From Hymenobacter oligotrophus (GTDB lineage Bacteria; Bacteroidota; Bacteroidia; Cytophagales; Hymenobacteraceae), in assembly GCF_003574965.1 (NCBI RefSeq), contig NZ_CP032317.1:2232001-2296000 (forward strand): a stretch of 64,000 nt of DNA. The letters are read 5' to 3'. Shown here in pieces: positions 1 through 62,126 of this stretch; positions within the stretch are counted from its first letter, which is position 1; each line of letters opens with the position of its first letter. The notes under the pieces are model-generated. The model was not told the DNA's origin. It ran no database searches and was given only the letters and a program-made list of their open reading frames with translations. The position numbers and the translations under genes were made by a program.

Positions 1-465
1 CGGCAAGGCCGAAGCCCGGAAGGCAGTGCGTAGGTTGCCCCTCAACTCCTGCAGTGCTGCGGACCTAGGGAAGCCTTGCACCATTACCGTAGCGGCCGAG
101 GCAGTGATGCCGGCGAAATTAATGGTAAATGGCTGGGCTACTGGCAGCACGCTCGCCAGCAGTTGCTTGTATGCGCTTGGGTTTATTTGGCTTAGAGCAA
201 AGCCCTCGTAGCAGGAAATGAGCGTCAGCAGCGTGACGTGCATATCCGAGGGCGGATAATAGTATTGCTCGGGTTCGAGGCGGCGCAGTTGTTCCACGAA
301 CTCGGCCATGCGGTGCTTTACTTCCGCTGTAGGGCGAATGACCAAGGTGAGACCTAGGCGATGGTCGTTGGGGTCGTCGAGCAGTGGGTCTGTGGCCAGG
401 CTGTTGCTTGCTAACTTAGGCAAAGCTTCCTGCCACATGGCAGCGTAATGATCGGCTAAGGTCAT
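1..465 (-). CDS. 2H phosphoesterase / 2'-5' RNA ligase-like protein (partial)
   Basis: The gene begins at ATG 465 and runs off the left edge, so the C-terminal part is missing. The 155 visible residues contain a first H-x-T motif (MHVTLL, around residue 77) after an acidic and aromatic stretch (EQYYYPPSD). This is the arrangement of the 2H phosphoesterase superfamily, which hydrolyses or ligates 2',5' or 2',3'-cyclic phosphate bonds. The second H-x-T motif should lie beyond the edge and cannot be checked. An in-frame stop lies a few codons upstream of the chosen ATG. The substrate cannot be inferred. Two CCTAGG sites lie within the gene, as is typical of native genes here. Confidence 0.65.
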   Translation of the reverse strand, partial: MTLADHYAAMWQEALPKLASNSLATDPLLDDPNDHRLGLTLVIRPTAEVKHRMAEFVEQLRRLEPEQYYYPPSDMHVTLLTLISCYEGFALSQINPSAYKQLLASVLPVAQPFTINFAGITASAATVMVQGFPRSAALQELRGNLRTAFRASALP

Positions 466-586
466 GAATAGCCAGGAGGTATACCAAGGAAAAGTCAGAC
501 ATAGCTGTTAGAGCTAACGGCATAAGTTTAGCTCGGCGTGGCTCACCGCAAAACTCAATAGCAATGCCCCGCAGATATATTTTCCT

Positions 587-1300
587 TTAGTAGTCCACCT
601 CTTTGTCACAGGCCAAGCAATCGAAGCGGATCGACTCAAGTTTACCTTCGCTTAGTTCGTAAATGTGCCTTGGATTGTCTATGCAGGGCTCAAGAACAAC
701 GAATTTGATCTTCTGCTGTAGCCCTGCATCTATGGCTGTCAGGAACGTTGAGTAGAATTGATTAGCCGACATTCCGACCTTGACCTTGTTAGTTAATGCC
801 ACAGTGCTGTCTCTCAATTCGCCTTTAATTATGTAGGAGCCCCAGTAGCTATCAGGCGAATCATCTTTGGCGAAGAAGAGCAACAGCCTATCTTTTCCTT
901 TTATCAAACTGTGATACGTAGAGGCCTCACCATCTCTTAGGCGGGTTACCTGCTTATTGACTTTGAATCCTTTTAGCAGCGATTTACCGAGCATGGATTC
1001 ATCCTTGATGTTTCCAAAAGGGTAATAAACAAACTCAGCACAGGTTACCAGGAACAAGGTATCAGCCGAAACCCAAGCGGAATCATTGAACTCGAAAGAC
1101 TTTTTGGGTTTAAGCCATCCGCTGCTCAGCTTATAAGCGCCTGCTGTGTCCGTAAGCATAGTCGATTCCGCTGTTCGCTTGCCGAACGTGTGTTTACCGG
1201 TATCACCCTGCTGGCCTTGCTTGCCGCAGGAGGCCATAAACAAGGCCGCAAAGACACCATACCATTTGATGAAGCCCTGTGGATTATCAATCACGATCAT
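587..1300 (-). CDS. Hypothetical lipoprotein
   Basis: The predicted 237-aa protein opens with a short N-terminus, a hydrophobic stretch (GVFAALFMASC) and a lipobox cysteine at about residue 25, so it is probably lipid-anchored in the envelope. The rest is a mixed alpha/beta-looking sequence ending in a cysteine-containing tail (FDCLACDKEVDY). I recognise no family. ATG 1300 is preferred; GTG 1315 in the same frame is an alternative. Base composition is unlike the neighbourhood: a 60-base sample near the stop is 48% GC, and the gene lacks the CCTAGG palindrome, so it may be a recent acquisition. It stands alone, pointing away from the macroglobulin gene across a 255-bp gap. Confidence 0.6.
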   Translation of the reverse strand: MIVIDNPQGFIKWYGVFAALFMASCGKQGQQGDTGKHTFGKRTAESTMLTDTAGAYKLSSGWLKPKKSFEFNDSAWVSADTLFLVTCAEFVYYPFGNIKDESMLGKSLLKGFKVNKQVTRLRDGEASTYHSLIKGKDRLLLFFAKDDSPDSYWGSYIIKGELRDSTVALTNKVKVGMSANQFYSTFLTAIDAGLQQKIKFVVLEPCIDNPRHIYELSEGKLESIRFDCLACDKEVDY

Positions 1301-1517
1301 ACAATATTTGAGCACGGCGCATTAGTTAAGCTTTGCAAATAGTAGCCTGACTGACGCTTAGGCAAATTTGTCCGAGCTCTTAATTTTTACGCACAGCCTT
1401 ACTTGCTCAACCGGCAAGTGCCAAGCTGCCTCGCGGTTCTTATTGCTTAAAAGCTGCATTAGTTAGCTATTGACCTTTTAGCAGCTATAATACCCCTTAT
1501 CCATTAGCGTTTTTCTA

Positions 1518-1525
1518 TACCTTTC
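1518..1525 (+). promoter_or_regulatory. Possible Bacteroidota -7 element (TACCTTTC)
   Basis: TACCTTTC lies 31 bp before the macroglobulin ATG and matches the Bacteroidota TAnnTTTG element at seven of eight positions. No clear TTG is present at the expected -33 spacing, so this is tentative. Confidence 0.3.
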
Positions 1526-1555
1526 GCCCGCCGCTATCCTCCCCCTATCCTTCCG

Positions 1556-4500
1556 ATGACTACCCCCAAACTGCTTCGCCTGCCGCTGCTGGTGCTGCTG
1601 GCTTTGCTATGCGCGTGCTCCAAACCCGGCGAGGATGCCAACACAGCAACTGCTGCCGACGGCGAGGAAATCGACCCGTACGAAAACCTGATTTTCAGCT
1701 TCGAGGAGCCGGTAGCCTCGGAGGCCCAGCTGAACCGCTGGGACACCACGCAGGTAGTGCGCTTTGAGCCGGCGGTGCGGGGCAAGTTTAAGTGGGCGTC
1801 GGAGCGGGAGCTGGTGTTTTCGCCGGCCGAGCCGTTCCGGCCGAGCACCGCGTTTCGGGCCGAGCTGCGGCCGCAGGCGCTGCCCAGCGGCAAGCAGCAG
1901 AAACCACCTAGGCTGAGCCGCACGCAGTTTCATACGCCCTACTTACAGATGAGCGAGCCGCAGGTGTTCTGGACGGCCTCGGCGCAAAGCAGCGAGCCGG
2001 CCGTGCGCCTGAACGCGGTGTTCAACTACGCCGTGCGCCCCACCGACCTGCGCCAGCACCTGCGCCTCACGGTAGCCGGCCAGCAGGTGTCCTTCGAGGT
2101 AGTATCGGCCGAGCCCGACCGCGTGGTGGGCATCCGGCCCACGCAAACGGTAGCACCGGGCAGTACTGTTCAGCTCCACGTGGAACCTGGCCTGAAGCCC
2201 GTGGGCGGCGGCAACGGCACCAGCCGTGCCCTCGATGCCTCGGGTACCGTGCCCGATCCGCAACAGTTGCAGGTGCGCGAGCTGACGGGTTCCTTGCTCA
2301 ACGGCGAACCGGTGGTGACGGTGCTCACCGACCAACCCATATCAGCTGAGCAGGCGCAAACAGTAGTGCGCGTGCAGCCTGCCGTGGCCTTTGGTGTGGA
2401 GGCGCTGGAAAGCGGCTTTGTGCTGCGCGGCGGTTTCGAGGTAGGCAAAACGTATACGGTGAGCGTAGGCCCCGGCGCCTACGGCACCCTAGGTGGGCAT
2501 TTGGCCGAGCCGTTCAGCCAGGCCGTATCGTTTGGCGACGAGCGGCCGAGCATCAGCTTTGCCTCGGGCGGCGAAAAAGCCATGTACCTGGGCGCGCAGG
2601 GTTTGCGCAACCTAGGGCTGCGCCTGAACGAGGTGGAGCGCGTGAAGGTGAGCATCTACAAGGTGTACGCCAACAACATCCGGGAGCTGCTGCGCTCGGG
2701 CGAGCAGTACGGCTACGATGCCGGCGAGGAGGGCGAAGAAAGCCAGGACGAAAACGGCGAGTGGATAGACCGCAGCTACCGCTACTACAATACCGAGGAC
2801 TTCGGCAACCTGCTCACGGAGCGCACCTACAGCACCAGCGCCCTGCCCAAAGCCGGCGCGCTGCGCCTGCTGCACCTCTCGCTCGACGAGCTGGAGTTCG
2901 GCAACCAGATGAAAGGCCTGTACGTGGTGCGCGTGCAGGATACCGAGCGTCAATGGCTGCAGGTATCGAAGCTGGTGGCCGTGTCGGACCTAGGCGTGGT
3001 GGTGAAGCGCAACGGCACCGGCGGCGCCATGGTGTTCGTGAATTCGCTGCGCACGGCCAAGCCGGTGGGTGGCGCCTCGGTGCGCTTCATCAGCCACAAC
3101 AACCAAACGATGTTTACGGGCCAAACCAACGCCAACGGCGTGGCCATGCTAGGGCAGAGCGACAGCACCGCCAACAGCCGCTTCCGGCTGGACATGGTGA
3201 TGGTGCAGAGCGGCCCGGATTTCACCTTTCTGCAGCTGGAGCGCGCCCGCGTCGAAACCTCGCGCTACGACGTAGGCGGCCTGCAAAGCAACGCGGCCCG
3301 CTTCCAGGCTTTCCTGTACGGCGACCGTGACCTGTACCGCCCCGGCGACACTATCCGCACCAACACCGTGGTGCGCACCGACAACTGGCGCGTGCCCGGC
3401 GCCGTGCCCATGAAAATTAGGCTGCTATTGCCCACCGGCAAGGAGTACGCCAGCTACCGCCGCACCCTGAGCAAGGAAGACGGCTCGTTTGAGGCGCAGT
3501 TCATCGTGCCGCCTTCCGTAATGACGGGCCTCTACACGCTGGAGGTACTCACCGGCAACGACGTGCTGCTGACCTCGCGCAAAATCAGCGTGGAGGAGTT
3601 TATCCCCGACCGCCTGAAAGTAACCGTAACTGCCGCGCCCAAAGTGGTGCAGCCCGGCCAAACGGTGCGCGCCACGGCGCTGGCCCAAAACCTGTTCGGC
3701 CCGCCCGCTACCGACCGCAAGTTTGAGGTAGAGTTTTCGCTGAAGCAAAAGGCCTTCGCGCCCAAAGAATACGCCGATTACAACTTCAGCATCCGGAGTG
3801 GTGTGGAGCGACGCAACCAGTACGGCGGCGAAGAGCCGGAGTCGGCCTCGGCGCTGAACGAGCGGTTTGAGAAAGCCGTGCGCGAAGGCCGCACCAACGA
3901 GCAGGGCCGCGGCACGGCCGAGTACCAGGTGCCCGAATACCGCGACCTAGGCACGCTCGAAGGCACCGCCTTTGCCACGGTGTTCGACGAAACCGGCCGT
4001 CCCGTAAACCGCCTCGCCACCTTCGAGGTGCGCACCCAGGCCGTGATGTTCGGGGTGCAGCAATTGCCCGAGCTGCTGAGTACCCGCCAGGCCGTGCCCA
4101 TTCGGGTGGTGGCCCTTACGCCGCAGGGACAACCTACCCAGGCCCGCGGCGAGGTGCGCGTGGTGCGCATGCTCTGGGAAACCGTGCTGGAGCGCCAGGG
4201 CGGCCGCTACACTTACAACTCGCAGCGCCGCGAGCAAACTGTGCTCAGCCAAGCCATTCAGGCCGGCCCGGCGGCGGTGCTGAACTTCACGCCTACCTAC
4301 TCGGGCGAGTACGAGGTGCGCGTGTCGCGGCCCGGCGCTGCTACCTACGTGGCCAGCCGCTTCTACGCCTACGGCTACGGCGACACGCAGAGCAACGCCT
4401 TCGAGGTAAGCAACGAGGGGCAGGTGCAGATCGAGGCCGACAAGCCCAAGTACCAGCCCGGCGACAAAGCCACGCTGCTGCTCAAAACGCCCTTCGCCGG

Positions 4501-14601: not shown

Positions 14602-15129
14602 TCAGCTACCGCCGTCGTAACTGATGCTTGTTACCTCCACCACCTCGGGTTTGGGCCCTAGGTGCAGGGTTACTTGCTGGCCTAAGCGGGCACCCTGCAC
14701 CGCGCGGGCAATGGGCGCCACAAAGGCTATTTTGCCTTCGGCAATAGAGGCCTCATCAACACCCACGATGGTAAAGCGCCGCTCGGTGCCGGGTTTGCCG
14801 CCGCTGCGCGTAACAAGCGCAACCGAAGCTCCAAAGCGTACCTCGTCGGCGGGTTGCTGGCGCGGGTCAATTACTTTGGCCGAGGCAATGCGCGCACCTA
14901 GGGCGCTCAGCTTGCCGTTGAGGAGGCTGAGTTGGCGGGTACGGTCGGTGTCGTTGTCGCGGTTGGTTTCGGCCTGCCCGCGCTCGGCTTCCAGCTCGGC
15001 CAGCTCTTGGCGCAGCAGCTCGAGGCCCCGCGGCGTAACGTAGTTGGGCGTGTTGGGCGGCAGCGCGGCGCGGGGCGGCACAATGGGCGGCTGCTGCGAG
15101 TCGTCTTCTTTTACAAAACCTCGGCTCAT
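14602..15129 (-). CDS. GreA/GreB-type transcription elongation factor
   Basis: The 175-aa protein starts MSRGFVKEDD, the usual opening of Bacteroidota GreB-like factors. It continues with a helical hairpin (about 40-95, LRQELAELEAERGQ onward) and a C-terminal FKBP-like domain containing FVAPIARAVQGARLGQ. Gre factors enter the RNA polymerase secondary channel and stimulate cleavage of backtracked RNA through acidic residues at the coiled-coil tip. The tip here has NRDNDTDR, which is acidic. It lies 41 bp downstream of the DUF4130 gene on the same strand and could be co-transcribed with it. Confidence 0.85.
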   Translation of the reverse strand: MSRGFVKEDDSQQPPIVPPRAALPPNTPNYVTPRGLELLRQELAELEAERGQAETNRDNDTDRTRQLSLLNGKLSALGARIASAKVIDPRQQPADEVRFGASVALVTRSGGKPGTERRFTIVGVDEASIAEGKIAFVAPIARAVQGARLGQQVTLHLGPKPEVVEVTSISYDGGS

Positions 15130-46834: not shown

Positions 46835-46937
46835 GGTATGGTGATGTTGGGGAGGATGGAACAAACACCATAGCCTGCGCAAAGCGTTCTGCCGCAACGG
46901 CAGTTGGAGGCCGGGCCGTCTGCCCTAGGCCGTGAGC

Positions 46938-47047: not shown

Positions 47048-47054
47048 AGTGCCC

Positions 47055-47345: not shown

Positions 47346-47379
47346 AGTCGCGGGTGCTTTGGGTGGGTGGGTTAGGCGG

Positions 47380-47676
47380 TTACTCCCTCAAATAGGCAAG
47401 GCACTTATCTAGTTCGCGGATGTATTCGTTGAGACGTTGTTTTAGCTCGGTTGCGGTAGCCGGTTCGCCAGCTATGGTGTTAGCAAGTTTAACAATATTT
47501 TCCTGGTTCTGGTGCTCGCGCAGCTGCTTGTCCCGGTCGCGCAGCTCGGCCTGGAGCTGCTGAATGGTGGTGTGGGCATCGGCCAGTTCTTCGCGCACTT
47601 GCTGATAGGCAGCCACTAAAGTGGTTACCTGCCGTTCCAATCGGTCGAGTTGGGCAAGCTGTTGCGAGGAGGCCAT
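47380..47676 (-). CDS. Small coiled-coil protein (ZapB-like by context)
   Basis: The 98-aa product is almost entirely coiled coil (LDRLERQVTTLVAAYQQV, then IQQLQAELRDRDKQLREHQ) with a short C-terminal helical tail (YIRELDKCLAYLRE). It lies between pheT and zapA, where Bacteroidota often encode a ZapA partner. By context it may be a ZapB-like division factor, but sequence alone shows only the coiled coil. ATG 47676 is chosen; upstream in-frame sequence is low in coding character. Confidence 0.7.
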   Translation of the reverse strand: MASSQQLAQLDRLERQVTTLVAAYQQVREELADAHTTIQQLQAELRDRDKQLREHQNQENIVKLANTIAGEPATATELKQRLNEYIRELDKCLAYLRE

Positions 47677-47756
47677 AATCAGGGAATTTCTGAGGCAAAG
47701 TAACGAATTGCGCGGATCTGCGGGCCTTTCCGGTTTGAAAGGGCTGGTAAGTAAAG

Positions 47757-47854
47757 CGCCGTAGCGCCAACTTTTGGCGCTGCACAGCACAGTAGCACTC
47801 AATTGCTGAGCTTACTACCCCGCCTGCGCAAGCCAGAAAGTTGGCGCTACGGCT
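47757..47854. repeat. GTAGCGCCAAC inverted repeat
   Basis: GCCGTAGCGCCAACTTT (from 47758) is the complement of AAAGTTGGCGCTACGGC (to 47853) across about 63 bp. It lies between pheT and the coiled-coil gene. Confidence 0.75.
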
Positions 47855-47869
47855 CTAACCTACTATGTC

Positions 47870-50305
47870 CTATTTCCGGATAACTGCGCCCGCTTGCTGC
47901 TCGAACTGCGTCATGAGTTTTTGCATCACCTGATCGATGGCCTGATCGGTGAGCGTACGCTCGGGGTCTTGCAGCAGGAAGCTCAGCGAGTACGATTTTT
48001 TGCCGGCACCTAGGTTTTCGCCCTGGTACACGTCGAACACGTTCACTTCGCGCAGCAGCTTCTTCTCAACTTTGGTGGCAATCTGGCGCAGCTGCTCGAA
48101 CGTCACGCCCAGGTCGACAACCAGCGACAAATCGCGGCGGACTTCGGGGAACTTGGGCAGCTCCTGCACCGTGAGGGCCCCGCGGTACTTCTTGGTCAGC
48201 CAAGCCCAGTCGAGCTCGGCGTACCACACGGGCTGGTTTACGTCCATCTGCTTCAGCACTTTCGGCGACACGCTGCCTAGGTGCACCACCGGCTGGTTGT
48301 GCAGCAGCAGCGTAAGGCCGCCGTTGAGGTAGGGGTGCTGCACGGGCTGCTGGCCCGGCTGCGCGTGGCCCAGGCTGCGCAGCACCTGCAGCACAGCGCC
48401 GGCCAGGTGGTGGTAAGCCGTTTTGGCGTCGGGCTGTTGCCAGCTTTCGGCCTGCAAGTTGCCCGTCAGGAAGATACCTAGGGTGGGGCGCTCTTTGTAG
48501 CTGCCGTCGGGCTGGCGGTGGTAGCTGCGACCGAACTCGTACAGCTTCAGGTCGCGCTGGCGGCGGTTTACGTTGTGGCGCACAATCTCGAGGCCCGAGT
48601 GCAGCAGCGTGGGGCGCATCACATCGAGGTCGGCCGAGTTGTAGTTCAGCACGCGCACCAAATCGGCAGCGGGCTGCTCGGCGGTTTCGAAGTAATCGGA
48701 GTTGACGAGCGAGTTCGTTACGATTTCGGAATAGCCCTGGCCGCTGAGCAGCTGCGACACGTCGCGGCGGAGCAGTTCGGCATCGGGCTGCGGGAAGCCG
48801 GCCAGGAAATCGGCGGCGTTGTGGGTGCGCAGCGGCACGTGGTCGAAGCCGTAAATGCGCAGGATTTCCTCCACCACATCGGCTTCGCGGGTAACATCCA
48901 CGCGGTACGGCGGCACCGATACAATCCACTCGGGCCCGCCGTGCACGTCGTTTTCCTCCACAATGAGGATGTCCAGATCGGTCAGGATCTGACGAATGCG
49001 GTCGGAGGCAATGTAGTGGCCGATGAGCTTCTCGACGCGCGGCAGCAGCAGGCGCACCGAGGTGTGCTCGATGTGCGTGGGAAACTCATCGACAATGGGC
49101 GCGGCCACGCGGGCACTGGCCACCTCTTGCAGCAGCAGGGCCGCCCGCTTGAGGGCCAGCGGCACCATGTGCGGGTCGGTACCGCGCTCGAAGCGGAACG
49201 AAGCGTCGGTTTTGAGCTGGTGATTTTGAGCGGTTTTGCGCGCTACGGCCGGGTCGAAGTAGGCACTTTCGAGAAATACGCGGGTGGTACCCTCGGTTAC
49301 GCCCGAGGTTTTGCCACCGAACACCCCAGCCAGCGCCAGCGCACGGCCTTGGGCATCGGCAATAACCAAGTCTTCGGCCTTCAGGGTGCGCTCGGCGCCA
49401 TCGAGCGTGGTGAATTGCTCCCCGGCAGCGGCGCGGCGCACCCGAATGCCGTTGCCGCCAATTTGGTCGGCATCGAAGGCGTGCAGCGGCTGGCCCAGCT
49501 CGTGCAGCACGTAGTTGGTTACGTCGACGACGTTATTGATGGGCGACAGGCCAATGCTGCGCAGACGGCGCTGCATCCACTCGGGCGAGGGGCCTACCTG
49601 TACGCTTTCGAGCAGCAAGCCAGCATAGCGGGGGCACGCCTCGGCATCCTCGATCTGCACGCCGATGGCTTGGCCTTCGGCCTGCACCGGCGCATGAAAG
49701 TGGCTAACATCGGGCAGCTGCACGGGCTGGCGCAGCAGGGCGCGCAAATCGCGGGCTACGCCGAAGTGCGAAGCAGCATCGGCGCGGTTCGGCGTCAGGC
49801 CGATTTCCAGCACGTGGTCGGAACCCAGGCCGAAGTACTCGGCGGCCGGCGTGCCGTTGGGCAGGTCGGTATCGAGTACCATAATGCCGGCGTGCGAAGT
49901 ACCCAGGCCGATTTCATCTTCGGCGCAAATCATGCCTTCCGAAGCCGCACCGCGGATTTTCGATTTCTTGATTTTGAACGGCTCGCCGCTGGTGGGGTGC
50001 AGCACGGCACCCTCCAGGGCAACTACCACGCGCTGGCCGGCGGCCACGTTGGGCGCTCCGCACACGATGTTGCGCGGGCTAGCGTCGCCTACGTCCACGG
50101 TAGTAATGCTGAGCTTATCGGCATCGGGGTGTTTTTGGCAGGTGAGCACCGTGCCTAGCACTACGCCCTGCAAACCGCCCGGCACACTTTCCAACTCCTC
50201 CAGGCCTTCAACCTCGAGGCCGGTGCTGGTAAGCAAAGCCGAAATTTCAGCCGGCGTTTTATCAGTAGGAAACAGGGTGCGGAGCCAGTCGAGGGAAATC
50301 TTCAT
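47870..50305 (-). CDS. pheT: Phenylalanyl-tRNA synthetase beta subunit
   Basis: The 811-aa subunit has all expected domains: tRNA-binding OB fold (VVLGTVLTCQKHPDADKLS), B3/4 editing domain (residues about 200-400, SPINNVVDVTNYVLHELGQP), and B5 domain. The core (VVEEILRIYGFDHVPL) and C-terminal FDX-ACB anticodon-binding domain (FPEVRRDLSLVVDLGVTFEQLRQ in two parts) are also seen. With PheS it charges tRNA-Phe and edits mischarged tyrosine. pheS is not in the window. ATG 50305 gives the standard start (MKISLDWLRTLFPTDKTP). Confidence 0.97.
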   Translation of the reverse strand: MKISLDWLRTLFPTDKTPAEISALLTSTGLEVEGLEELESVPGGLQGVVLGTVLTCQKHPDADKLSITTVDVGDASPRNIVCGAPNVAAGQRVVVALEGAVLHPTSGEPFKIKKSKIRGAASEGMICAEDEIGLGTSHAGIMVLDTDLPNGTPAAEYFGLGSDHVLEIGLTPNRADAASHFGVARDLRALLRQPVQLPDVSHFHAPVQAEGQAIGVQIEDAEACPRYAGLLLESVQVGPSPEWMQRRLRSIGLSPINNVVDVTNYVLHELGQPLHAFDADQIGGNGIRVRRAAAGEQFTTLDGAERTLKAEDLVIADAQGRALALAGVFGGKTSGVTEGTTRVFLESAYFDPAVARKTAQNHQLKTDASFRFERGTDPHMVPLALKRAALLLQEVASARVAAPIVDEFPTHIEHTSVRLLLPRVEKLIGHYIASDRIRQILTDLDILIVEENDVHGGPEWIVSVPPYRVDVTREADVVEEILRIYGFDHVPLRTHNAADFLAGFPQPDAELLRRDVSQLLSGQGYSEIVTNSLVNSDYFETAEQPAADLVRVLNYNSADLDVMRPTLLHSGLEIVRHNVNRRQRDLKLYEFGRSYHRQPDGSYKERPTLGIFLTGNLQAESWQQPDAKTAYHHLAGAVLQVLRSLGHAQPGQQPVQHPYLNGGLTLLLHNQPVVHLGSVSPKVLKQMDVNQPVWYAELDWAWLTKKYRGALTVQELPKFPEVRRDLSLVVDLGVTFEQLRQIATKVEKKLLREVNVFDVYQGENLGAGKKSYSLSFLLQDPERTLTDQAIDQVMQKLMTQFEQQAGAVIRK

Positions 50306-50382
50306 AATAATCAGTTGGCTGTGGCCTAGGTAGCCAGTGGCCGTTTGGGCTGAGGCAGCAAAGGTAAACGGTGCCGCACGAT

Positions 50383-50603
50383 GTAGCGCGGACTTTGCAA
50401 GTCCGCGTCCACAGATAGTAAACTCAATCGTTGCGTGTAGCGCGGGCTTTAGCCCGCGTTTGCCAGAACGGCTGGCGTCAGGGCAGTTCCGCGCGGTACC
50501 ACTCGTTCACGCCAACGCAGGCTAAAGCCCGCGCTACACCGCGCGCTCTAGGTCAGAAACATAAATTACTATCCGGGGACGCGGACTACAAAGTCCGCGC
50601 TAC
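50383..50603. repeat. Nested double inverted repeat
   Basis: An outer stem (GTAGCGCGGACTTTGCAAGT from 50383, complement ending 50603) encloses a full GTAGCGCGGGCTTTAGCCCG element (50437-50537), the same family and length as 14485-14585. It fills the gap upstream of pheT. Confidence 0.85.
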
Positions 50604-50609
50604 ACTGCG

Positions 50610-51239
50610 CTACAGTTCTTTGTACGTCTTCTCCCCTACCGGCACTTCCACACCCAGCCAGTTCTCTTTGGGCGGCATGGGGCACGAGGCGATGCTGTCG
50701 CCGTAGGCGCAGTACGGGTTGTAGGTGCGGTTGAAATCGAGCACCACTTGGTTGTCGTTTTCGCCGGGCGTTTCTACATCGAGGTAGCGGCCGCCGCCAT
50801 AGGTGGAGCGCCCGTTGGTTTTGTCGGTGAAGGGCACGAAGAGCGTGGGGTCGGTTTTGCTGGCGCGCTTCAGCAGCGTAAGGGTTTGCGGCTGTCCGCT
50901 CACCTCAAAGGTGGCGCGGCCAAAGCGGGTGTACTTGTCGGCGCCGCCTTCGGTGAGCGGCAGGCTGATGGTGTCGCCTTCGGGCAGGCGCTCGAGCTTG
51001 GCCACCAACCGCCACTCGCGGTTGGGCGTGTAGTAGCGCAGGCTGTCGAAGTTTTCGTGCAGCTCTTCGGGCAGCGGCGATTCGCTGTGGCTGCGGAATT
51101 GCTCGTTTTTCTGCTTGCGCTCCTGCTTCAGCTTAAACGCGTATTGATCGTCGCTGAGCACGAGGTCGGAAAAGATGTAGCCGAGCACGATGAGCAAGCC
51201 CAGACCTAGGAAAATTTTGGGCGCCGAAATTTTAGCCAT
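50610..51239 (-). CDS. DUF1684 membrane-anchored protein
   Basis: The 209-aa protein has one N-terminal membrane helix (IFLGLGLLIVLGYIFSDLV) and a DUF1684 domain. The typical C-terminal signature is LDFNRTYNPYCAYGDSIA, then CPMPPKENWLGVEVPVGEK. The family is of unknown function and is widespread in Bacteroidota and Actinobacteria. The conserved FNRAYNPYCAY-like motif may bind a ligand. Upstream of it lies radC on the same strand, 133 bp away with two CCTAGG sites between. Confidence 0.8.
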   Translation of the reverse strand: MAKISAPKIFLGLGLLIVLGYIFSDLVLSDDQYAFKLKQERKQKNEQFRSHSESPLPEELHENFDSLRYYTPNREWRLVAKLERLPEGDTISLPLTEGGADKYTRFGRATFEVSGQPQTLTLLKRASKTDPTLFVPFTDKTNGRSTYGGGRYLDVETPGENDNQVVLDFNRTYNPYCAYGDSIASCPMPPKENWLGVEVPVGEKTYKEL

Positions 51240-51372
51240 GCTGCAAAGCTAGACCACGAATGAACACGGATTGGACGGATTGCCCGGATTTTGTGACCAA
51301 CTGCAGTGCAGCGCCCGCTCCGGGGGCCCCTAGGTGCCCGAAGTTGATTGAGGCACCTAGGGCTTGCAAGAG

Positions 51373-52116
51373 TTACAAAATGCCCTCGTCGGCGAAGCTG
51401 TAGTAGCCGCGGTCGGTGTAGATGAGGTGGTCGAGCACGGGCAAGTCTAGAAACTTGCCGGCTTCTTTAAGCTTTTTGGTCAGGGCAATATCGGCGGCGG
51501 AGGGCTGGCGGTTGCCGCTGGGGTGGTTGTGCACCAGAATAATGCTGCTAGCCAGCTGCTCCAGGGCGTGCTTGAAGATCATCTTGGGGTCGGCTACGGT
51601 GCCGGCCACGCCGCCGCTGCTGATCTTTTCCTGCCGCATTACCACGTTGGCGCGGTTCAGCAGAATCACCCAAAACTCCTCGTGCGGCAAATCCTGCAAA
51701 GCGGGCCGTACCAGGTTGTAAATGTCGGTGGAGCAAGTGATGGTGGTGCGCTCGGCCGCGGCGGTTTCTTTGCGGCGGCGGCCCAGCTCGAGGGCTGCCA
51801 CAATAGTTATGGCTTTGGCCTCGCCAATGCCTTTGTGGCGCATCAGCTCCTTCACCGAGAGCCTGGCCAGCTGGTTTAAATCGTTGCCGGTGGCGGCCAG
51901 CACCAGCTTGGCCACATCCACGGCCGAGAGCTTGGCCGTGCCCGAACCCAGCAAAATAGCCATCAGCTCGGCATCCGACAGCGCGGCGCGGCCTTTCAGC
52001 AACAGCTTTTCGCGGGGGCGGTCTTCTTCGGCCCAGCTCTTGATGCTGAAGCTAACCGGCGCCTGATAGCTGCCCGCCGGGCTTTCGTCTTCTGTCGCGT
52101 TGTCAATCGAATCCAT
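51373..52116 (-). CDS. radC: RadC-family JAB-domain protein
   Basis: The 247-aa protein has an N-terminal helix-hairpin-helix region (MRHKGIGEAKAITIVAALEL) and a C-terminal JAB metalloprotease-like domain with HNHPSGNRQPSAADIALT and FWVILLNRANVV. RadC was once linked to DNA repair, but the family's true role is unsettled; some members act with natural transformation or anti-plasmid functions. All JAMM residues are visible. It is a single gene, divergent from the metallophosphoesterase gene. Confidence 0.9.
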   Translation of the reverse strand: MDSIDNATEDESPAGSYQAPVSFSIKSWAEEDRPREKLLLKGRAALSDAELMAILLGSGTAKLSAVDVAKLVLAATGNDLNQLARLSVKELMRHKGIGEAKAITIVAALELGRRRKETAAAERTTITCSTDIYNLVRPALQDLPHEEFWVILLNRANVVMRQEKISSGGVAGTVADPKMIFKHALEQLASSIILVHNHPSGNRQPSAADIALTKKLKEAGKFLDLPVLDHLIYTDRGYYSFADEGIL

Positions 52117-52228
52117 ACGGCACCACTATTGTTAAGGGGCGGAGTAAAGTAAAATTTCAACTTGTCCGTCTTACGTACAGACGCGCGGCTGCAACCAAAC
52201 GGCCGCCGCGGAGTTTGTTAGCCTCGAT

Positions 52229-53482
52229 ATGTCTCGTCTGTTTTCATCGTTTTTCTTTTTGGCGCTGCTGGTGGTGGCCGAGTGGTACGGCTCGCAAGCC
52301 ATTCGCACCTTGGTGCAGCAGTATTCGCAACACACCCGGCGCGTGGTTACAACCGCGTACTGGCTGGTTACCATCGGCCTGTGGGTTGCCGGCGTGTGGG
52401 CCATGAGCACGCGCCACATGGGCAGCAGCGCCTCCAAGTCGTACATCGGCGGCTTGCTGCTGGCGTTTGTGGTGGCCAAGCTCATCGTGCTGCTGTTTTT
52501 GCTGCCCGAAGACCTGGTGCGCCTCGGGCGCTGGGCAACGCGGCTGTTTACCCGCTCGGGCGATGGTGCCACGGCCGGCGGCGCGCCCATTACGCGCAGC
52601 GAGTTCCTGAGCAAAATGGCCCTGCTCGCGGCGGGCATCCCGTTTGTGGCGCTGATTTACGGCATGGTGCGCGGCGCCACCGATTACCGCGTGAAGCGCG
52701 TAACGCTGCGCTTTCCCAACCTGCCGGCCTCGTTCGATGGCTTCAAAATGGTGCAGATTTCCGACCTGCACACGGGCTCGTTTCAGTCGAAAGAGCCGCT
52801 GCGCCGGGCCGTGAACCTGATTAATCAGCAGGGTGCCGACCTGGTAGTAATGACCGGCGACCTAGTAAACAACTTCGCCCACGAGGTGGAGGAGCACATC
52901 GACACGCTGGCCGGCATTACCTCGGGCGTGGCCAAGCTCTCGGTGCTGGGCAACCACGACTACTCCGATTACGTGGACTGGGGCCCCCTTGGTGGCGCCG
53001 AGGCCAAGGCTGCCAACCTCGCCCGCATCAAAGAAAACCACGCCAAAATTGGCTGGCGCCTGCTGCTTGATGAAACGCACCACATTGAGCGCAACGGCGA
53101 GAAGATTGCCATTTTGGGTGTGCAGAACTGGGGCCAGCGCGGCTTTGCCAAGTACGGCAACCTCGCCAAAACCCACGCGGCCTCGGGCGAAGTGCCGTTC
53201 AAAATTCTGCTCTCGCACGACCCTTCGCATTGGGAGGCGCAGGTGCTCGAGTACAACGACATCGACCTGACGCTTTCGGGCCACACCCACGGCATGCAGT
53301 TCGGTGTGAACCTGCCGCACCTTAAGTGGAGCCCCGTGCAGTACGTGTACCGGCAGTGGGCGGGCTTGTACGAGCGCGGCAAGCAGCTGCTGTACGTAAA
53401 CACCGGCCTGGGCTTTATCGGCTATCCCGGCCGCGTGGGTTTCCTGCCCGAAATCACGGTGTTTGAGCTGCGCCGGGCATAG
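52229..53482 (+). CDS. Membrane-anchored metallophosphoesterase
   Basis: The 417-aa protein has three or four N-terminal membrane helices (about 5-25, 40-60, 72-95, 128-148) and a calcineurin-like phosphoesterase domain. All metal motifs are present: ISDLHTG, VMTGDLVNN, LGNHDYSDY and SGHTHGMQFG. Members of this YkuE-like group act on the membrane or periplasmic face, with substrates such as UDP-diacylglucosamine-like lipids or nucleotides suggested in different species. The substrate here is unknown. ATG 52229 precedes the first helix. Confidence 0.85.
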   Translation: MSRLFSSFFFLALLVVAEWYGSQAIRTLVQQYSQHTRRVVTTAYWLVTIGLWVAGVWAMSTRHMGSSASKSYIGGLLLAFVVAKLIVLLFLLPEDLVRLGRWATRLFTRSGDGATAGGAPITRSEFLSKMALLAAGIPFVALIYGMVRGATDYRVKRVTLRFPNLPASFDGFKMVQISDLHTGSFQSKEPLRRAVNLINQQGADLVVMTGDLVNNFAHEVEEHIDTLAGITSGVAKLSVLGNHDYSDYVDWGPLGGAEAKAANLARIKENHAKIGWRLLLDETHHIERNGEKIAILGVQNWGQRGFAKYGNLAKTHAASGEVPFKILLSHDPSHWEAQVLEYNDIDLTLSGHTHGMQFGVNLPHLKWSPVQYVYRQWAGLYERGKQLLYVNTGLGFIGYPGRVGFLPEITVFELRRA

Positions 53483-53618
53483 TTCTGCCGTCTCAAACTC
53501 AACCTTAGGTAACGCAACCTGGGCAGCAGCGTATAAGCCGCTGTGCACGGTGCCCGAAGTGCTTCTTCCGGAACGCACCTAGGCGCCGTGCCTTCCCTAA
53601 CCGTTGATTTACCTGATT

Positions 53619-54299
53619 ATGAAAAAGACCCTCATGCTAATGGCCTGCGCTGGTGCGCTGACCATGGCCTCGTGTAGCAGCGACAACAACACCGACTCGG
53701 CCGCTACCACTACCGAAACCACCACGACCACCGAAACCTCGGCCACCGGCAACGCTTCGGCGGCCATGGGCGGCTACTCCGACGCCGACTACAACAGCCG
53801 TGCCGACCGGATTTCGCAGGACTTGGCTACCAACATGAAGCTCGACGATGCCACCCGCCAAAAGGTGCGCACCGTGTACTACAACCGCTCGAAGCGCCTG
53901 GGCGAGCTGCACAACAAGTACGCCACCGACACCACCGGCATGGCCGCCGAAATGAACCGCGTGTACTCTGACACGGATACCGAGCTGAAGGGCATCTTTA
54001 CGGAGCCCGAAATGTATGCCACCTACGAGTCGAACCGCGACATGTACATTGAGGACCGCTACATGACCACCGACAACACCTCGATGGCTAGCGGCAGCGA
54101 CATGAACGCCGAAAACGCCTCGGGTTCGGCTTCGATGTCGGGTTCGACGAAAACCAAAGAAGGCGACGTGAAAGTGAAAATTCAGCGCGACGGCGACCTG
54201 AAAATCAAGGACGCCGCCGACAACAAAACCAAGATGGATGCCGACGACGGCACCGTGAAGCACAAGCCCGAAGAGGGCCAGAAGGTAAAAATGGAATAG
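53619..54299 (+). CDS. Acidic lipoprotein with Ser/Thr-rich linker
   Basis: The 226-aa product has a lipoprotein signal (LMACAGALTMASC, Cys19) and a Thr/Ser/Glu linker (TTTETTTTTETSATGNAS). A helical domain follows (about 60-145, YNSRADRISQDLATNMKLDD onward) resembling small periplasmic stress proteins. The C-terminal half is a charged, Lys/Asp-rich low-complexity tail (KIQRDGDLKIKDAADNKTK). The helix region may be Spy/CpxP-like, but this is only an impression. A strong terminator follows. ATG 53619 is preferred for the signal peptide. Confidence 0.65.
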   Translation: MKKTLMLMACAGALTMASCSSDNNTDSAATTTETTTTTETSATGNASAAMGGYSDADYNSRADRISQDLATNMKLDDATRQKVRTVYYNRSKRLGELHNKYATDTTGMAAEMNRVYSDTDTELKGIFTEPEMYATYESNRDMYIEDRYMTTDNTSMASGSDMNAENASGSASMSGSTKTKEGDVKVKIQRDGDLKIKDAADNKTKMDADDGTVKHKPEEGQKVKME

Positions 54300-54325
54300 C
54301 CGATTGGCTTAATTCCGGATTTTGC

Positions 54326-54365
54326 AAAAAAGCCTGCGCCGTTGCCAACGGCGCAGGCTTTTTTT
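54326..54365 (+). terminator. Intrinsic terminator
   Basis: AAAAAAGCCTGCGCCGTTG (from 54326) pairs with CAACGGCGCAGGCTTTTTT (to 54365), 26 bp after the lipoprotein stop. Confidence 0.9.
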
Positions 54366-54423
54366 ATCTCATTGGCCCGAGGCTTGAATACATTGCGGGC
54401 CGATTGCTTGTTTGCAGCCTTGC

Positions 54424-55209
54424 ATGGATATTTCGTTGGTATTGTATCGGTTGATTTTGCGGAGGTGGCTGGGCCTCTTGGCAGTGCTGCTGTGCCTGTG
54501 GGCCGCGGCGCCGGCCAGCGCGCAAACGCAAGTGCGCGTTACGGGCTCCATCAGCGACAAAGACACGCGCCAGGACATCCCGGGGGCGGCCGTTATCAAC
54601 CAGCGCACCCGCCGGGGCGTGGTGGCCAACGAGCAGGGCGAGTTCAGTTTGGTGGCGCAGCCCACCGATACGCTGGAGTTTCGGGCCATCGGCTACGCCT
54701 CGTACCGCATGCCCCTAGGTGGCACGGGCCTCTCGCAGCTGATTGTGCAGGTAAAGCTGCAGCGCACCAGCGTGCAGCTTACGGGCGTAACCATTCGCGA
54801 AGGCCGCCCCGACGATGCCACCATCAACAAAGCCCTGCGCAACATTCGGCGGCCCACGCCCCCGCCCAACGCGGTGAAGCGGCCGCCCCGGCCCAAACCC
54901 CTATTCCCCGTCGACTCAACGGCGCCTAAGGTGCCCGTACCCACGCTGGCCAACCCCATAAGTTTTATCTACGACCAGTTTTCGCGCGAGGGGGAGCAAC
55001 GCCGCAAGATGGAGGAGATTCAGGCCCAGAAGCAGTACAACGACGAGCTGGCCAGGCGCCGCGCCTATAACCGCCTCTTCCGCATCAACAAAGGCTACGA
55101 GGTAGAAACCGACTCCGCGTACGTGCCCATTTCGGTGCCGCGCACCTTGCCGGCGTTGCCCGCGCAACCCATGCAGCCGCCCGCCGGCAGCCTGGCACCT
55201 AAGCGGTAA
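54424..55209 (+). CDS. Carboxypeptidase-regulatory-like domain protein
   Basis: The 261-aa protein has a signal peptide (LLAVLLCLWAAAPASAQ). A CarboxypepD_reg-like beta sandwich follows (VRVTGSISDKDTRQDIPGA, VVANEQGEFSLVAQPTDTL, FRAIGYASYRM, VKLQRTSVQLTGVTIREG), the domain that begins SusC-like receptors. Here it is followed by a Pro/Arg-rich segment and a helix (SREGEQRRKMEEIQAQKQY) rather than a barrel. Such stand-alone proteins are common in Cytophagales and have unknown roles. ATG 54424 is used. Confidence 0.8.
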   Translation: MDISLVLYRLILRRWLGLLAVLLCLWAAAPASAQTQVRVTGSISDKDTRQDIPGAAVINQRTRRGVVANEQGEFSLVAQPTDTLEFRAIGYASYRMPLGGTGLSQLIVQVKLQRTSVQLTGVTIREGRPDDATINKALRNIRRPTPPPNAVKRPPRPKPLFPVDSTAPKVPVPTLANPISFIYDQFSREGEQRRKMEEIQAQKQYNDELARRRAYNRLFRINKGYEVETDSAYVPISVPRTLPALPAQPMQPPAGSLAPKR

Positions 55210-55293
55210 GCGCGCCCCCTGCCCGGGCAAGCCGGCCCTAGGTGCGCCGGCGCTTTTGCCAACCTAGGGAGCGGCCCCGGCGTAAGCCTAGCT

Positions 55294-56220
55294 ATGAGAA
55301 TTGGCTATCCTTGCGTCAACGAGTCGCTCGACTGCACGTCTACCTCCACCTTTCGGCTGGCTTCGTACTCGGCCGAGCGGCTGGAGCAGGCCGTGGCCAA
55401 CAACCTGGCCTGCCTGCAGCGCATTCTGGAGTACAACGTGCAGCACGAGCTGCGCTTCTTCCGGATTGGCTCGGGCATTGTGCCGTTCGGCTCGCACCCC
55501 GTCAATACCTACCCCTGGCAGCAGCGCTTTGCGGCCGAGTTTCGGGCCATCGGCGACTACATCAAGCAACACGATATGCGGGTGTCGTTTCACCCCGATC
55601 AGTTTGTGGTGCTAAACTCGCCCGATACCGGCATTGTGGAGCGCAGCGTGGCCGAATTGGTGTACCAGGGCTCGATGCTTGATTTGATGGGCCTCGACAG
55701 CAAGGCCAAGCTCCAGATACACGCCGGCGGCGTGTACGGCGACAAAGAATCGGCGCTGAAACGCTGGATTGCTACCTACAACGAGCTACTGCCCGAGGCT
55801 GTGAAGGTGCGCCTGGTGGTCGAGAACGACGACCGCCTCTACAGCCTGCAAGAGTGCCTGCGCCTCTACGACACGGTGGGCGTGCCGGTGCTGTTCGACA
55901 ATTTCCACCACGAGTGCCTGAACAGCGGCGAACCCATGCCCATGGCCTTGCAGCTGGCCGCCGCCACCTGGCACCCCGAGCAAGATGGCCCGCTGATGAT
56001 CGACTACAGCTCGCAGGCGCCGGGCGAGCGGAAAGGCAAGCACGTGAACAGCATCGAGGAAGACCTGTTCCGGGCTTTCGTGGATGATTTGCGCGGCATC
56101 GATGCCGACATCATGCTTGAAATCAAAGACAAAGAAGCCAGCGCCCACAAGGCCTGCGCGATTCTGCGCGACGTAGGCCGGCTCACGGCGCCGCGCACCC
56201 CCTCAGCCACTTCGTACTAA
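55294..56220 (+). CDS. uvsE: UV damage endonuclease
   Basis: The 308-aa enzyme is UvsE/UVDE: MRIGYPCVNESL opening, RILEYNVQHELRFFRIGSGI, the metal-binding VSFHPDQFVVLNSP, LQIHAGGVYGDKE, LVVENDDR and LFDNFHHE. The TIM-barrel endonuclease nicks DNA 5' to UV photoproducts and other lesions, an alternative to UvrABC. All recognised metal ligands (His, Glu, Asp) are present. The downstream 122-aa gene starts 16 bp later and may be co-transcribed. Confidence 0.95.
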   Translation: MRIGYPCVNESLDCTSTSTFRLASYSAERLEQAVANNLACLQRILEYNVQHELRFFRIGSGIVPFGSHPVNTYPWQQRFAAEFRAIGDYIKQHDMRVSFHPDQFVVLNSPDTGIVERSVAELVYQGSMLDLMGLDSKAKLQIHAGGVYGDKESALKRWIATYNELLPEAVKVRLVVENDDRLYSLQECLRLYDTVGVPVLFDNFHHECLNSGEPMPMALQLAAATWHPEQDGPLMIDYSSQAPGERKGKHVNSIEEDLFRAFVDDLRGIDADIMLEIKDKEASAHKACAILRDVGRLTAPRTPSATSY

Positions 56221-56236
56221 GCTATATCTCGCAATC

Positions 56237-60062: not shown

Positions 60063-61118
60063 GTGAAATACCTTAGCCTCTCTTGGTTTCCGGCCTACGG
60101 AACCTTGCCATCCGAATCCCGCAGCATTGTGCGCGATGCCCTTATTGGCCTGCTGTTGTGGGTTATGGGCTCCTTGCTGCTGTTTGCTGGCGAAAGCAAC
60201 GGCGAGCTTGTGTTATACTGGAGCTTTCTGGCAGTGCCGGCAGTGCTGTTGCATTGTTTTGCCTGCTACAAGCTTATTCCGGGCGTGGCAGGCCGTAAGC
60301 GCCCGTTTTGGGCCTACCTGCTGCGCCTCGTTCTTACACTGCTGCCCATGGCTTTGGTTTTGGGCGTGCTCTTGGGCGTGCTGCGCAACGACCCCGAAGC
60401 CGCCGCGGGCTACGTGGCCCTGCTGCTGCCCTTTCAGCTGCTGATTACCGCCCCGCTCGCGTGGTTGGTGTACCAGCGGCGCACCCGCGGCCAGCGGGCC
60501 CTGGAGGGGCTGCGGCAGGAGCTCGGGCACTCGAACGCCTCGCTCGATTTGCTGCGGGCCCAAATCAACCCGCATTTCCTGTTCAACGCGCTCAACACGC
60601 TCTACGGCACCGCGCTGCAAGAGCAAAGCGAGCGTACGGCGCAAGGCATTCAGATGCTGGGCGACATGATGCGGTTTATGCTGCACGAAAACCACCAGTC
60701 GCGCATTTTGCTGGCCCGCGAAATCGAGTACCTGCGCAACTACGTGGAATTGCAGTCGTTGCGCATCGCTACCTCGCCCAACATCACCATCGAAACCAAC
60801 ATCGAGGAGGTGCCCGAAGCCGCCTGGATTGCCCCCATGCTGCTAATCCCGTTTGTCGAAAACGCGTTCAAGCACGGCATCAGCCTACAGCGCCGCTCCT
60901 GGATTAAAACCACGCTGCATTACGCCAACGGCAAGCTGTATTTTGATGTGTACAACAGCACGCACCCCCGGGCCGAGCACGAGCCGCTGGCCGAAGAATC
61001 GGGCCTAGGCCTCAGCAACGTGCAGCAGCGGCTGGCGCTGCTTTACCCCAAGCGCCACGACCTGGTAATTCGGGAAACCGGCACCGAATTTTTCGTGCAT
61101 CTTACGCTGCAGCTGTAA
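60063..61118 (+). CDS. LytS-type sensor histidine kinase
   Basis: The 351-aa protein has four or so N-terminal membrane helices (about 25-135) and a His_kinase domain with the phosphohistidine His171 in QINPHFLFNALNTL. A C-terminal ATPase domain follows (LLIPFVENAFKHGI, the N box, and GLGLSNVQQRL, the G box). It lacks an extra sensor domain, as is common in Bacteroidota LytS-like kinases. GTG 60063 is the start. The LytTR regulator gene follows 27 bp later, forming a two-gene system. Confidence 0.9.
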   Translation: MKYLSLSWFPAYGTLPSESRSIVRDALIGLLLWVMGSLLLFAGESNGELVLYWSFLAVPAVLLHCFACYKLIPGVAGRKRPFWAYLLRLVLTLLPMALVLGVLLGVLRNDPEAAAGYVALLLPFQLLITAPLAWLVYQRRTRGQRALEGLRQELGHSNASLDLLRAQINPHFLFNALNTLYGTALQEQSERTAQGIQMLGDMMRFMLHENHQSRILLAREIEYLRNYVELQSLRIATSPNITIETNIEEVPEAAWIAPMLLIPFVENAFKHGISLQRRSWIKTTLHYANGKLYFDVYNSTHPRAEHEPLAEESGLGLSNVQQRLALLYPKRHDLVIRETGTEFFVHLTLQL

Positions 61119-61145
61119 GCGCCGCGTGTTTCTGTTCTGCTTCGC

Positions 61146-61832
61146 ATGATTGCCATTGCCATCGACGACGAGCCCATTGCCCTGAACGTAATTCGCGCCC
61201 TGGCCGCAAAGGTGCCGTTTATTGAGCTGAAAGCGTGTTTTACGAACGCGTTTCAGGGGCTGGAATACCTGCAGCAGGAGCCCGTCGATTTGCTGTTTAT
61301 CGATATCAACATGCCCGATATTTCGGGCCTGGAGCTGGTGAGCAGCTTGGCGCGCAAGCCGCTGGTGGTGTTTACCACAGCCTACGCCGAGCACGCCGTT
61401 ACCGGCTTTGAGCTCGATGCCCTCGACTACCTGCTGAAGCCTTTTTCGCTGCCGCGGTTTGTGAAAGCGTGCAACAAAGCCCACGAGCAGTTGCAGTTGC
61501 GCGGCGCCCATTCCGCCGCGCCTCCCACAGCCCCAAAAGACTACCTGTTCGTGAAAACCGGCTACGAGCAGGTACGCGTGCGCCACGCCGACATTCTGTA
61601 CCTCGAGGCCGCGGGTAACTACGTAACGTTTGTGCTGGAGGGCAAAAGCGTGCTCACGCGCATGACCATTAATGAACTAGCCGAGCTGTTGCCTGCCGAA
61701 CGCTTTGTGCGCGTGCACCGCTCGTTTATCGTGGCCCGCAACCGCATCGACCGCATCGAGCGGCATCAGGTAAGCATCGGCGGCAAATGCGTGCCCCTAG
61801 GTGCTTCGTACTTGCCGCAGCTGCGGGAGTAG
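61146..61832 (+). CDS. LytTR-family response regulator
   Basis: The 228-aa protein has an N-terminal receiver domain (acidic cluster IDDEP, phosphoacceptor Asp53 in LLFIDINMPDISG, KPF lysine). The C-terminal LytTR DNA-binding domain has YLFVKTGYEQVRVRHADILY, split before the conserved EAAGNYV segment, then RVHRSFIVARNRIDRI. It is the cognate partner of the preceding kinase. Its target promoters cannot be inferred from this window. Confidence 0.92.
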   Translation: MIAIAIDDEPIALNVIRALAAKVPFIELKACFTNAFQGLEYLQQEPVDLLFIDINMPDISGLELVSSLARKPLVVFTTAYAEHAVTGFELDALDYLLKPFSLPRFVKACNKAHEQLQLRGAHSAAPPTAPKDYLFVKTGYEQVRVRHADILYLEAAGNYVTFVLEGKSVLTRMTINELAELLPAERFVRVHRSFIVARNRIDRIERHQVSIGGKCVPLGASYLPQLRE

Positions 61833-61862
61833 CGCGGGGCTTGGCCGCATGCGCACGCGGCC

Positions 61863-62126
61863 CTAGGTGAGTAGCAGCGCGGCATATAGGCAGGCCCGGG
61901 CCCGGCTCCACAAATCGGTACGGGTTTCCATCTCGCTCAAAACCAAATCGTGGCAACTGTGCAGCAAGTGCGCTTGCTGCTCTTGGCCCAGCGCGGGCGT
62001 GCCTTCTTGTATCTGCACCCAGTGCGCCAGCAAGCACGCCGCCTCGATGGTACGGCCCTCGTGCATTGCTTCTTGCACGAGGGCCGCCGCCTGCAGCCCG
62101 GCCATGGCAGAGTTAGAGGCGCTCAT
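61863..62126 (-). CDS. Hypothetical small helical protein
   Basis: The 87-aa frame is helical and Ala/Glu/Leu rich (AGLQAAALVQEAMHEGRTIEAA, split before CLLAHW) with no signal peptide or known motif. It converges on the response regulator with a 30-bp gap, and its TAG stop lies in a CCTAGG site. Codon use is native. Evidence is the intact frame and composition only. Confidence 0.5.
   Translation of the reverse strand: MSASNSAMAGLQAAALVQEAMHEGRTIEAACLLAHWVQIQEGTPALGQEQQAHLLHSCHDLVLSEMETRTDLWSRARACLYAALLLT

Follow-up and report, generated by a model that had tools for sequence, protein, structure and literature searches.

The hexamer CCTAGG occurs 97 times in the 64,000-base stretch of the Hymenobacter oligotrophus chromosome analyzed here (NZ_CP032317.1, C1:2232001-2296000; hereafter "the window"), where it forms the conspicuous center of a longer word, ACCTAGG[G/C], which has a direction at most of its sites and is iterated throughout the genome. 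The iterated word is real and strong, and it is apparently undescribed: no earlier description of iterated CCTAGG, or of the Pontibacter word AGGTATAG discussed below, was listed for this group in searches of a PubMed Central library, a collection outside whose scope most subscription papers lie. We tentatively read the sites, with slightly more doubt than belief, as a chromosome-wide self-recognition watermark that would work like the DNA uptake sequences (DUS) of Neisseriaceae and Pasteurellaceae.

A preliminary description of the window had counted about 97 copies and estimated a fivefold excess, and both figures stand: the exact count is 97 in 64,000 bases (first start 64, last site 61862–61867), compared with 21.2 expected from the base composition of the window, a 4.6-fold excess. 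Among the 64 hexamer palindromes, CCTAGG ranks first for over-representation in the window, followed by AAATTT (3.3-fold) and TGCGCA (3.2-fold). The maximal-order Markov expectation of 76.7 copies (ratio 1.26) nearly masks the signal because CCTAGG itself enters the pentamer counts. Using an order-2 Markov model on 556 kb of the window's own genome (G000), 803 copies were observed versus 99.6 expected, and the top 8-mer was ACCTAGGG, with 430 copies versus 9.6 expected. The whole genome (4,188,814 bases) contains 5678 copies, approximately one per 740 bases. A G+C of 0.611, as sampled, would lead to approximately 1380, and the reversed control GGATCC occurs 67 times. The preliminary description had named counts close to Markov expectation as evidence that would speak against a special word; the counts are far from both the order-2 and the composition expectation. 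No iterated palindrome other than CCTAGG with z above 6.7 was found in the pieces scanned.

Calling the element a highly iterated palindrome, as was done initially, does not do justice to its form. Genome-wide, 82% of the sites are one-sided, with ACCTAGG[G/C] accounting for 4682 of the 5678 (2350 on the forward strand, 2332 on the reverse strand); only 138 (2.4%) have the symmetric form ACCTAGGT. In 444 kb of G000, exactly one flanking A was found at 211 of 235 intergenic sites; since independent, alike sides could not give a one-sided A in more than 50% of cases, the word is directional. Its strict part spans 8 bases, compared with the 9 to 12 bases typical of DUS-type words; further but weaker preferences, for G at −3 and C at −2 on one side and for C at +7 on the other, draw it out towards GCACCTAGGGC.

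The density of the sites in the same 444 kb, with genes called by our own codon-model script rather than a standard annotator, is 2.53/kb in intergenic DNA and 1.04/kb in coding DNA, a 2.4-fold difference, and sites are densest in gaps between converging genes. Within genes, 335 of 366 sites lie in the phase NNC CTA GGN, which encodes Leu-Gly; the window itself contains 51 sites in this phase, 2 in another phase, 43 intergenic sites, and 1 partial one. Spacing is slightly more even than random (coefficient of variation [CV] 0.91 versus 1.03, standard deviation 0.05), and neighboring close pairs are inverted in 23 of 29 cases in a 416-kb block (p = 0.002). Replication-strand bias was not observed (289 versus 298 over 21 regions, with no region strongly skewed), and a replication or segregation mark with such a bias is not supported; a segregation mark had been among the roles suggested earlier.

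Within the family Hymenobacteraceae, 9 of 204 genomes contain more than 5000 copies of CCTAGG, namely G000, G004, and G007 in the window's genus (g1) and G030, G036, G072, G088, G104, and G123 in genus g4. Four genomes are intermediate (1209–2331 copies), and 191 have fewer than 900. Five of the eight g1 genomes, that is, five of the seven genus-mates of G000, contain 123 to 249 copies; in 60 to 85 kb of each of these five, no substitute word of like strength was detected (best z 21, 12 copies, compared with z 54–136 and 92–430 copies for the carriers' words). In an order-wide sample of 390 genomes, the 311 from outside the family reach at most 1349 copies, and none of 80 named RNase Y loci (8 from Hymenobacter) has more than five. 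Two other hexamers also vary: in sampled pieces, CTCGAG occurs 36 times per 100 kb in the three g1 carriers versus 3 times in the five non-carriers, and GGATCC occurs 0 to 30 times in many g4 genomes and approximately 80 to 325 times in many others, which looks like restriction avoidance in some.

Window positions 36,000–55,900 were mapped to G004, G007, and the five low-copy g1 genomes, for which identity to G000 in the larger pieces is approximately 88% (G004 and G007) and 80% (low-copy genomes). At the G000 sites, the low-copy genomes had CCTAGG in 2 of 175 comparisons, which are not independent as several genomes contribute per site, whereas ten other hexamers were kept in 11 to 68% of cases, mostly 30 to 60%. 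The states found instead included CCCAGG (35), CCGAGG (27), and CCAAGG (9), the rest being more distant, and low-copy genomes often have G where the carriers have A at −1. The sites were therefore either gained in the carriers' lineage or wiped out in the others, and of the two we favor gain. A single-base hot spot is not favored because the relatives' states vary and the −1 base often differs too; the simple mutational hot spot proposed initially does not agree with source states that include transversions and flanking-base changes.

Retention and loss were assessed in 283 kb of columns aligned in G000, G004, and G007, taken from one 416-kb block. Raw loss comparisons are affected by G+C drift that differs between branches, and expected losses were calculated from rates set separately for each branch, codon position, and kind of base change, which allow for this drift. 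Coding losses of CCTAGG amounted to 33 versus 75.0 expected in G000, 39 versus 76.8 in G004, and 64 versus 91.9 in G007, and intergenic losses to 28 versus 69. For ten control palindromes pooled, these numbers were 812 versus 913 (coding) and 55 versus 81.7 (intergenic); the intergenic loss of 28 of 169 CCTAGG sites is lower than that of 55 of 199 control sites (p = 0.012). Among in-phase Leu-Gly words, CCTAGG was lost in 119 of 572 cases and CCT[GCT]GG in 76 of 145 (p = 3e-13), much of the latter loss concerning CCTGGG (63 of 105), which is the main source of new CCTAGG. In a comparison with GCTGGG, CCTGGC, GCTCGG, and CCTCGG, pooled and in phase, p was 2e-4 for G000, 2e-10 for G004, and 0.55 for G007. 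The 47 conserved intergenic sites stand in variable surroundings, with 27% variable positions at 1 to 30 bases compared with 13 to 16% around random conserved hexamers. Retention above expectation is clear in G000 and G004, and G007 looks relaxed. Hence, the idea of a word kept genome-wide holds for its iteration and for its retention in two of the three genomes, not clearly for the third; likewise, loss at the neutral rate, raised earlier as a counter-argument, is at odds with the slower loss in G000 and G004 and less clearly so with that in G007.

One-step gains exceeded expectation in coding (34 versus 20.1) and intergenic DNA (4 versus 1.8), and CCCAGG was the source of 32 of the 38 one-step gains on terminal branches. 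Gains with at least two changed bases made up 20 of 58, compared with 18.6% in other hexamers with four G+C (p = 0.004). An initial indication that new sites come about by block replacement, with 7 of 11 such gains on 92 kb, shrank to 20 of 58 on 283 kb, where approximately 11 would be usual. Several gains turned the protein sequence to Leu-Gly, for example, FDMAY to FDLGY.

Other lineages write the word differently. For each lineage, 20 to 120 kb underlie the dialect described here, except for the flank counts, which are genome-wide. G030, G036, and G123 carry the core as ACCTAGGT and ACCTAGCT, with the palindrome ACCTAGGT accounting for 3262 of 5949 sites (55%) in G030; G072 has CCCTAGG[GC], and G088 and G104 have a mixture. 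In G041 and G129, two of the intermediate genomes, CTAGGCCA is found instead (84 per 100 kb); their intermediate counts accompany this word and were for this reason not taken as decaying relics. The Hymenobacter-type dialect words are ACCTAGG[G/C], ACCTAG[G/C]T, CCCTAGG[G/C], and CTAGGCCA. In 21.6 kb, AGGTATAG occurs 21 times in Pontibacter lucknowensis (L155) and 30 times in Pontibacter sp. HSC-14F20 (L157), with 0.6 and 0.7 copies expected, dispersed and on both strands; AAGTATAA occurs 27 times in Pontibacter cellulosilyticus (L154) and 11 times in 20 kb of G154 (genus g6). Per 100 kb, the set to which a word belongs contains 32 to 118 copies of it, and sets with another main word contain no more than 14. 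In order-2 simulations (15 per locus), the top 8-mer had z of at most 9.2. Five of the actual loci gave values from 14.8 to 35.6, and values of 8 to 13 are common in actual loci that have no iterated word.

The 20-kb word scan, with six carrier pieces as positive controls, ranked the expected word first in four and second in two (L126 and L130); with this not fully sensitive scan, no clear iterated word was found in the scanned pieces of G138, G008, G016, and G118. The top words of Hymenobacter ISL-91 (L149, near 3557) and of a G023 contig end (L293, 1–75) were discarded as tandem arrays with a 7-base period. In L166, a metagenome-assembled genome of the Bacteroidia, 13 copies of CATTCTCC are scattered over both strands of 21.6 kb, where 0.8 would be expected; this is maybe another iterated word outside the family. 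The words GTCGAGCA and CTGCTCGA are also in excess (GTCGAGCA 16 versus 0.9 in L126; 30 versus 4.7 in pooled pieces of G088 and G104), which could reflect codon usage or a second word.

Putatively acquired DNA was sampled for the word as well, and three of the four small contigs sampled are nearly devoid of it. Contig C2 of G000 (42,169 bases) has 1 site in 20 kb sampled; partial matches connect it with 25 plasmid records (24 from Hymenobacter), none covering more than 80% of the query and the best covering 59%, and it is likely a plasmid. One site in 20 kb sampled was also found in each of G104:C3 and G123:C2. Locus L080 lacks sites from 8.3 kb on (the last 11.7 kb); this part, which may be an island, encodes an ATP-grasp-type protein, a C39-peptidase ABC transporter, and an HlyD-type protein.

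The sites in the window, and those that illustrate conservation or recent change among the three g1 carriers, are as follows:
CCTAGG starts, 1–20 kb: 64, 353, 1907, 2488, 2611, 2989, 3946, 5785, 6334, 6472, 6739, 7524, 8308, 9093, 9211, 10031, 10451, 10565, 11716, 12254, 12663, 13214, 14046, 14657, 14897, 15219, 16188, 17250, 17344, 17381, 17398, 17599, 19048
CCTAGG starts, 20–40 kb: 20002, 20137, 21409, 21868, 22162, 22245, 23744, 24065, 24949, 25302, 26130, 26445, 28347, 28540, 28807, 30132, 31092, 31170, 31651, 31886, 32490, 32667, 32913, 34814, 36373, 37235, 37712, 38051, 39201, 39390, 39849
CCTAGG starts, 40–62 kb: 40602, 41763, 42788, 42866, 43029, 43263, 44570, 44998, 45031, 45065, 45576, 46924, 48009, 48276, 48477, 50325, 51205, 51329, 51356, 53578, 54714, 55237, 55263, 56793, 57383, 57632, 58202, 58875, 59286, 60030, 61004, 61796, 61862
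31091–31098, plus strand: directional word ACCTAGGG, the same in G000, G004, and G007; four aligned low-copy relatives have CCCAGG (3) and CCGAGG (1)
36372–36379, plus strand: ACCTAGGG in all three carriers; five low-copy relatives have CCGAGG (3), CCCAGG (1), and CCTAAC (1)
21867–21874, plus strand: ACCTAGGC in all three carriers; three aligned low-copy relatives have AGCTGGGC
1906–1913, plus strand: word in G000 alone among the three carriers; the others have the hexamer CCGAAG and G at −1; PPKLS to PPRLS; no outgroup aligned
14896–14903, plus strand: word in G000 alone among the carriers, with three mismatches to it in both others; SLLAA to SALGA; downstream of its core, the low-copy genome G005 reads like both of those carriers
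15218–15225, minus strand: word in G000 alone among the carriers; three core changes, protein QPRER unchanged
31169–31176, minus strand: word in the form ACCTAGGA in G000 alone among the carriers; amino acids change from DNLSN to DNLGS
44998–45070, no strand assigned: three sites inside 73 bases of the DNA that separates two converging genes, the class of intergenic gap in which sites are densest

The window also contains repeats of other kinds. The stretch of approximately 230 bases at 50376–50614 occurs on both strands, in more than 20 places in G007 and several in G004 among the matches listed, and resembles a dispersed repeat of the miniature inverted-repeat transposable element type. Short stretches at 42866–42980 and 50655–50845 have scattered extra copies in carriers and non-carriers of the genus, again among the matches listed.

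If the sites are a self-recognition watermark, some DNA-binding part of the machinery for transformation or recombination would prefer DNA with the word, and word-bearing alleles would spread through biased uptake and gene conversion. We infer a protein that reads the word and biases DNA uptake or recombination; the dialect would change together with this reader, which may have been weakened or lost in G007. An uptake signal was among the roles listed in the preliminary description and is now the best-fitting one, albeit unproven. The same description had likened the element to the highly iterated palindrome HIP1 of cyanobacteria; density, palindromic core, and lineage-specific replacement support this comparison, but the word is directional, none of the four methyltransferase families searched tracks it, and it appears more like the DUS dialects of Neisseria and Haemophilus. 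As in Neisseriaceae, there are thousands of copies, approximately one per kb, directional, equally frequent in both orientations, and in permissive positions; also shared are retention above expectation (in two of three genomes) and an excess of close inverted pairs, and, less certainly, lineage dialects and scarcity in most of the putatively acquired DNA sampled. Treangen et al. 2008 (PMC2397512) report a like signature for neisserial DUS: they occupy permissive places, are highly conserved, are missing from acquired genes, and include recent sites that differ too much to have arisen by point mutation. Another study describes dialects that vary around a constant core, as well as five Neisseriaceae genomes without obvious DUS (Frye et al. 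2013, PMC3630211). The uptake signal sequences (USS) of Pasteurellaceae, described in part in PMC1939737, have a different word and a similar density, orientation, and placement pattern. Within the Bacteroidota, Riemerella columbina prefers its own DNA, according to one report (PMC7965970).

Several observations weigh against a DUS-like watermark. The distribution is patchy within genera, with 9 of 204 genomes identified by CCTAGG, a share that other dialects would raise. The one-mismatch halo is weak (1.9-fold in G000, mostly at the last position, with core-mismatch words near background; 2- to 3.5-fold in the Pontibacter pieces), compared with an approximately 11-fold excess listed for a DUS and for HIP1 in Bakkali 2007 (PMC1939737), where the expectation was computed differently. 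Patchiness and weak halo do not fit classical DUS. The phylum is another one, and CCTAG, common to the Hymenobacter-type dialects observed, is absent from the Pontibacter words AGGTATAG and AAGTATAA. In coding DNA, CCATGG and TGCGCA were kept about as well as CCTAGG, and the comparison with Leu-CTC words (CCTCGG and GCTCGG, 26 of 95 lost) gave p = 0.18 overall and 0.035 for G000 and G004 only. All three terminal branches show net loss, with 164 losses and 58 gains (41 and 21 in G000, 48 and 27 in G004, 75 and 10 in G007); the gain/loss ratio of 0.35 is below the first percentile (0.40) of control hexamers, and the word is therefore out of balance now. Gain flanks have 0.067 unique changes per base, barely more than the mean of 0.057 (loss flanks, 0.083), and import by recombination is therefore not visible. 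Finally, the putative plasmid contig G123:C3 has 10 sites in 20 kb.

It is possible, although we consider it unlikely, that the sites are chromosome-wide binding sites of a lineage-specific protein involved in nucleoid organization, recombination initiation, replication, or repair, without any role through DNA uptake. Selection would then keep approximately one site per 740 bases, while the specificity of the protein drifts between lineages. Retention above expectation, the slightly even spacing (CV 0.91 versus 1.03), and the near absence of the word from most sampled small contigs are all compatible with this explanation. Like Chi sites, the word is short, over-represented, and different between lineages. 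Marks of the Chi or KOPS (FtsK-orienting polar sequences) type are expected to show replication-strand bias, however, and CCTAGG has none; moreover, the genus-mates at approximately 80% identity do without the sites, which must therefore be dispensable.

More doubtful still is a drive without function, in which a mismatch-repair, gene-conversion, or similar system, horizontally acquired and lost, would convert near-sites to the word, the present sites being a decaying relic. A burst followed by decay would account for relatives that lack nearly all aligned sites, for terminal branches that lose more than they gain, and for the apparently relaxed state of G007. CCCAGG, the commonest source (32 of 38 one-step gains), is correspondingly depleted, at 77 per 100 kb in carriers versus 140 in the five low-copy mates. 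Yet a good number of the sites call for more than one kind of change, some of them transversions or at the −1 base, and retention exceeds expectation in G000 and G004.

We regard as improbable a HIP1-type element, that is, a methylated palindrome upheld by methylation-directed mismatch repair, a mechanism that Elhai reportedly proposed for cyanobacterial HIP1. The density of approximately one per 740 bases, the palindromic core, the preference of G030 for ACCTAGGT, and a patchy replacement like that of the alternate HIPs described in PMC4390886 would agree with it, but in the lineage to which the window belongs the word has a direction, and its one-mismatch halo is slight. In addition, four DNA methyltransferase families (PF01555, PF00145, PF02086, and PF02384) were searched in 30 of the 204 genomes, of which 9 have high, 4 intermediate, and 17 low counts, and the occurrence of none of them follows the trait. 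This lends no support to the methylation target suggested initially, with room left for other enzyme families. Matches to PF00145, PF01555, PF02086, and PF02384 were found in 2, 4, 0, and 8 of the 9 high-copy genomes and in 8, 9, 4, and 16 of the 17 low-copy genomes, respectively; G000 has one PF02384 match and none to the other three, and G004 has one PF01555 match and none to the other three. A search for PF05063 (MT-A70) gave nothing even in control genomes and is hence uninformative. Codon usage or composition is a very improbable cause of the excess: coding sites are mostly Leu-Gly (CTA GGN) in a single phase, but this is contradicted by the 2.4-fold higher intergenic density, by genus-mates at approximately 80% identity without the excess, and by the restriction of the excess to ACCTAGG[G/C/A] rather than CTA-Gly words generally.

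Over-represented chromosomal words have been described in few groups, and HIP1, reported in 1995, has a role that is, to our knowledge, still open. Extending the watermark reading to the family, we suggest, with a little more reserve, that Hymenobacteraceae may hold a chromosome-written self-recognition code (ACCTAGGS, ACCTAGST, CCCTAGGS, CTAGGCCA, AGGTATAG, and AAGTATAA), whose reader would be gained, lost, and re-specified between close species, each change rewriting thousands of sites. If true, this would be the first uptake-signal-type system in Bacteroidota, as far as we know. The trait is present in some species and missing from others with which they can still be aligned, so that gain, loss, and dialect change are traceable at single-base resolution, and a comparison of carriers with non-carriers within a genus offers a way to look for its driver. 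Should DNA uptake be steered by the words, these would define gene-exchange barriers in a large environmental family.

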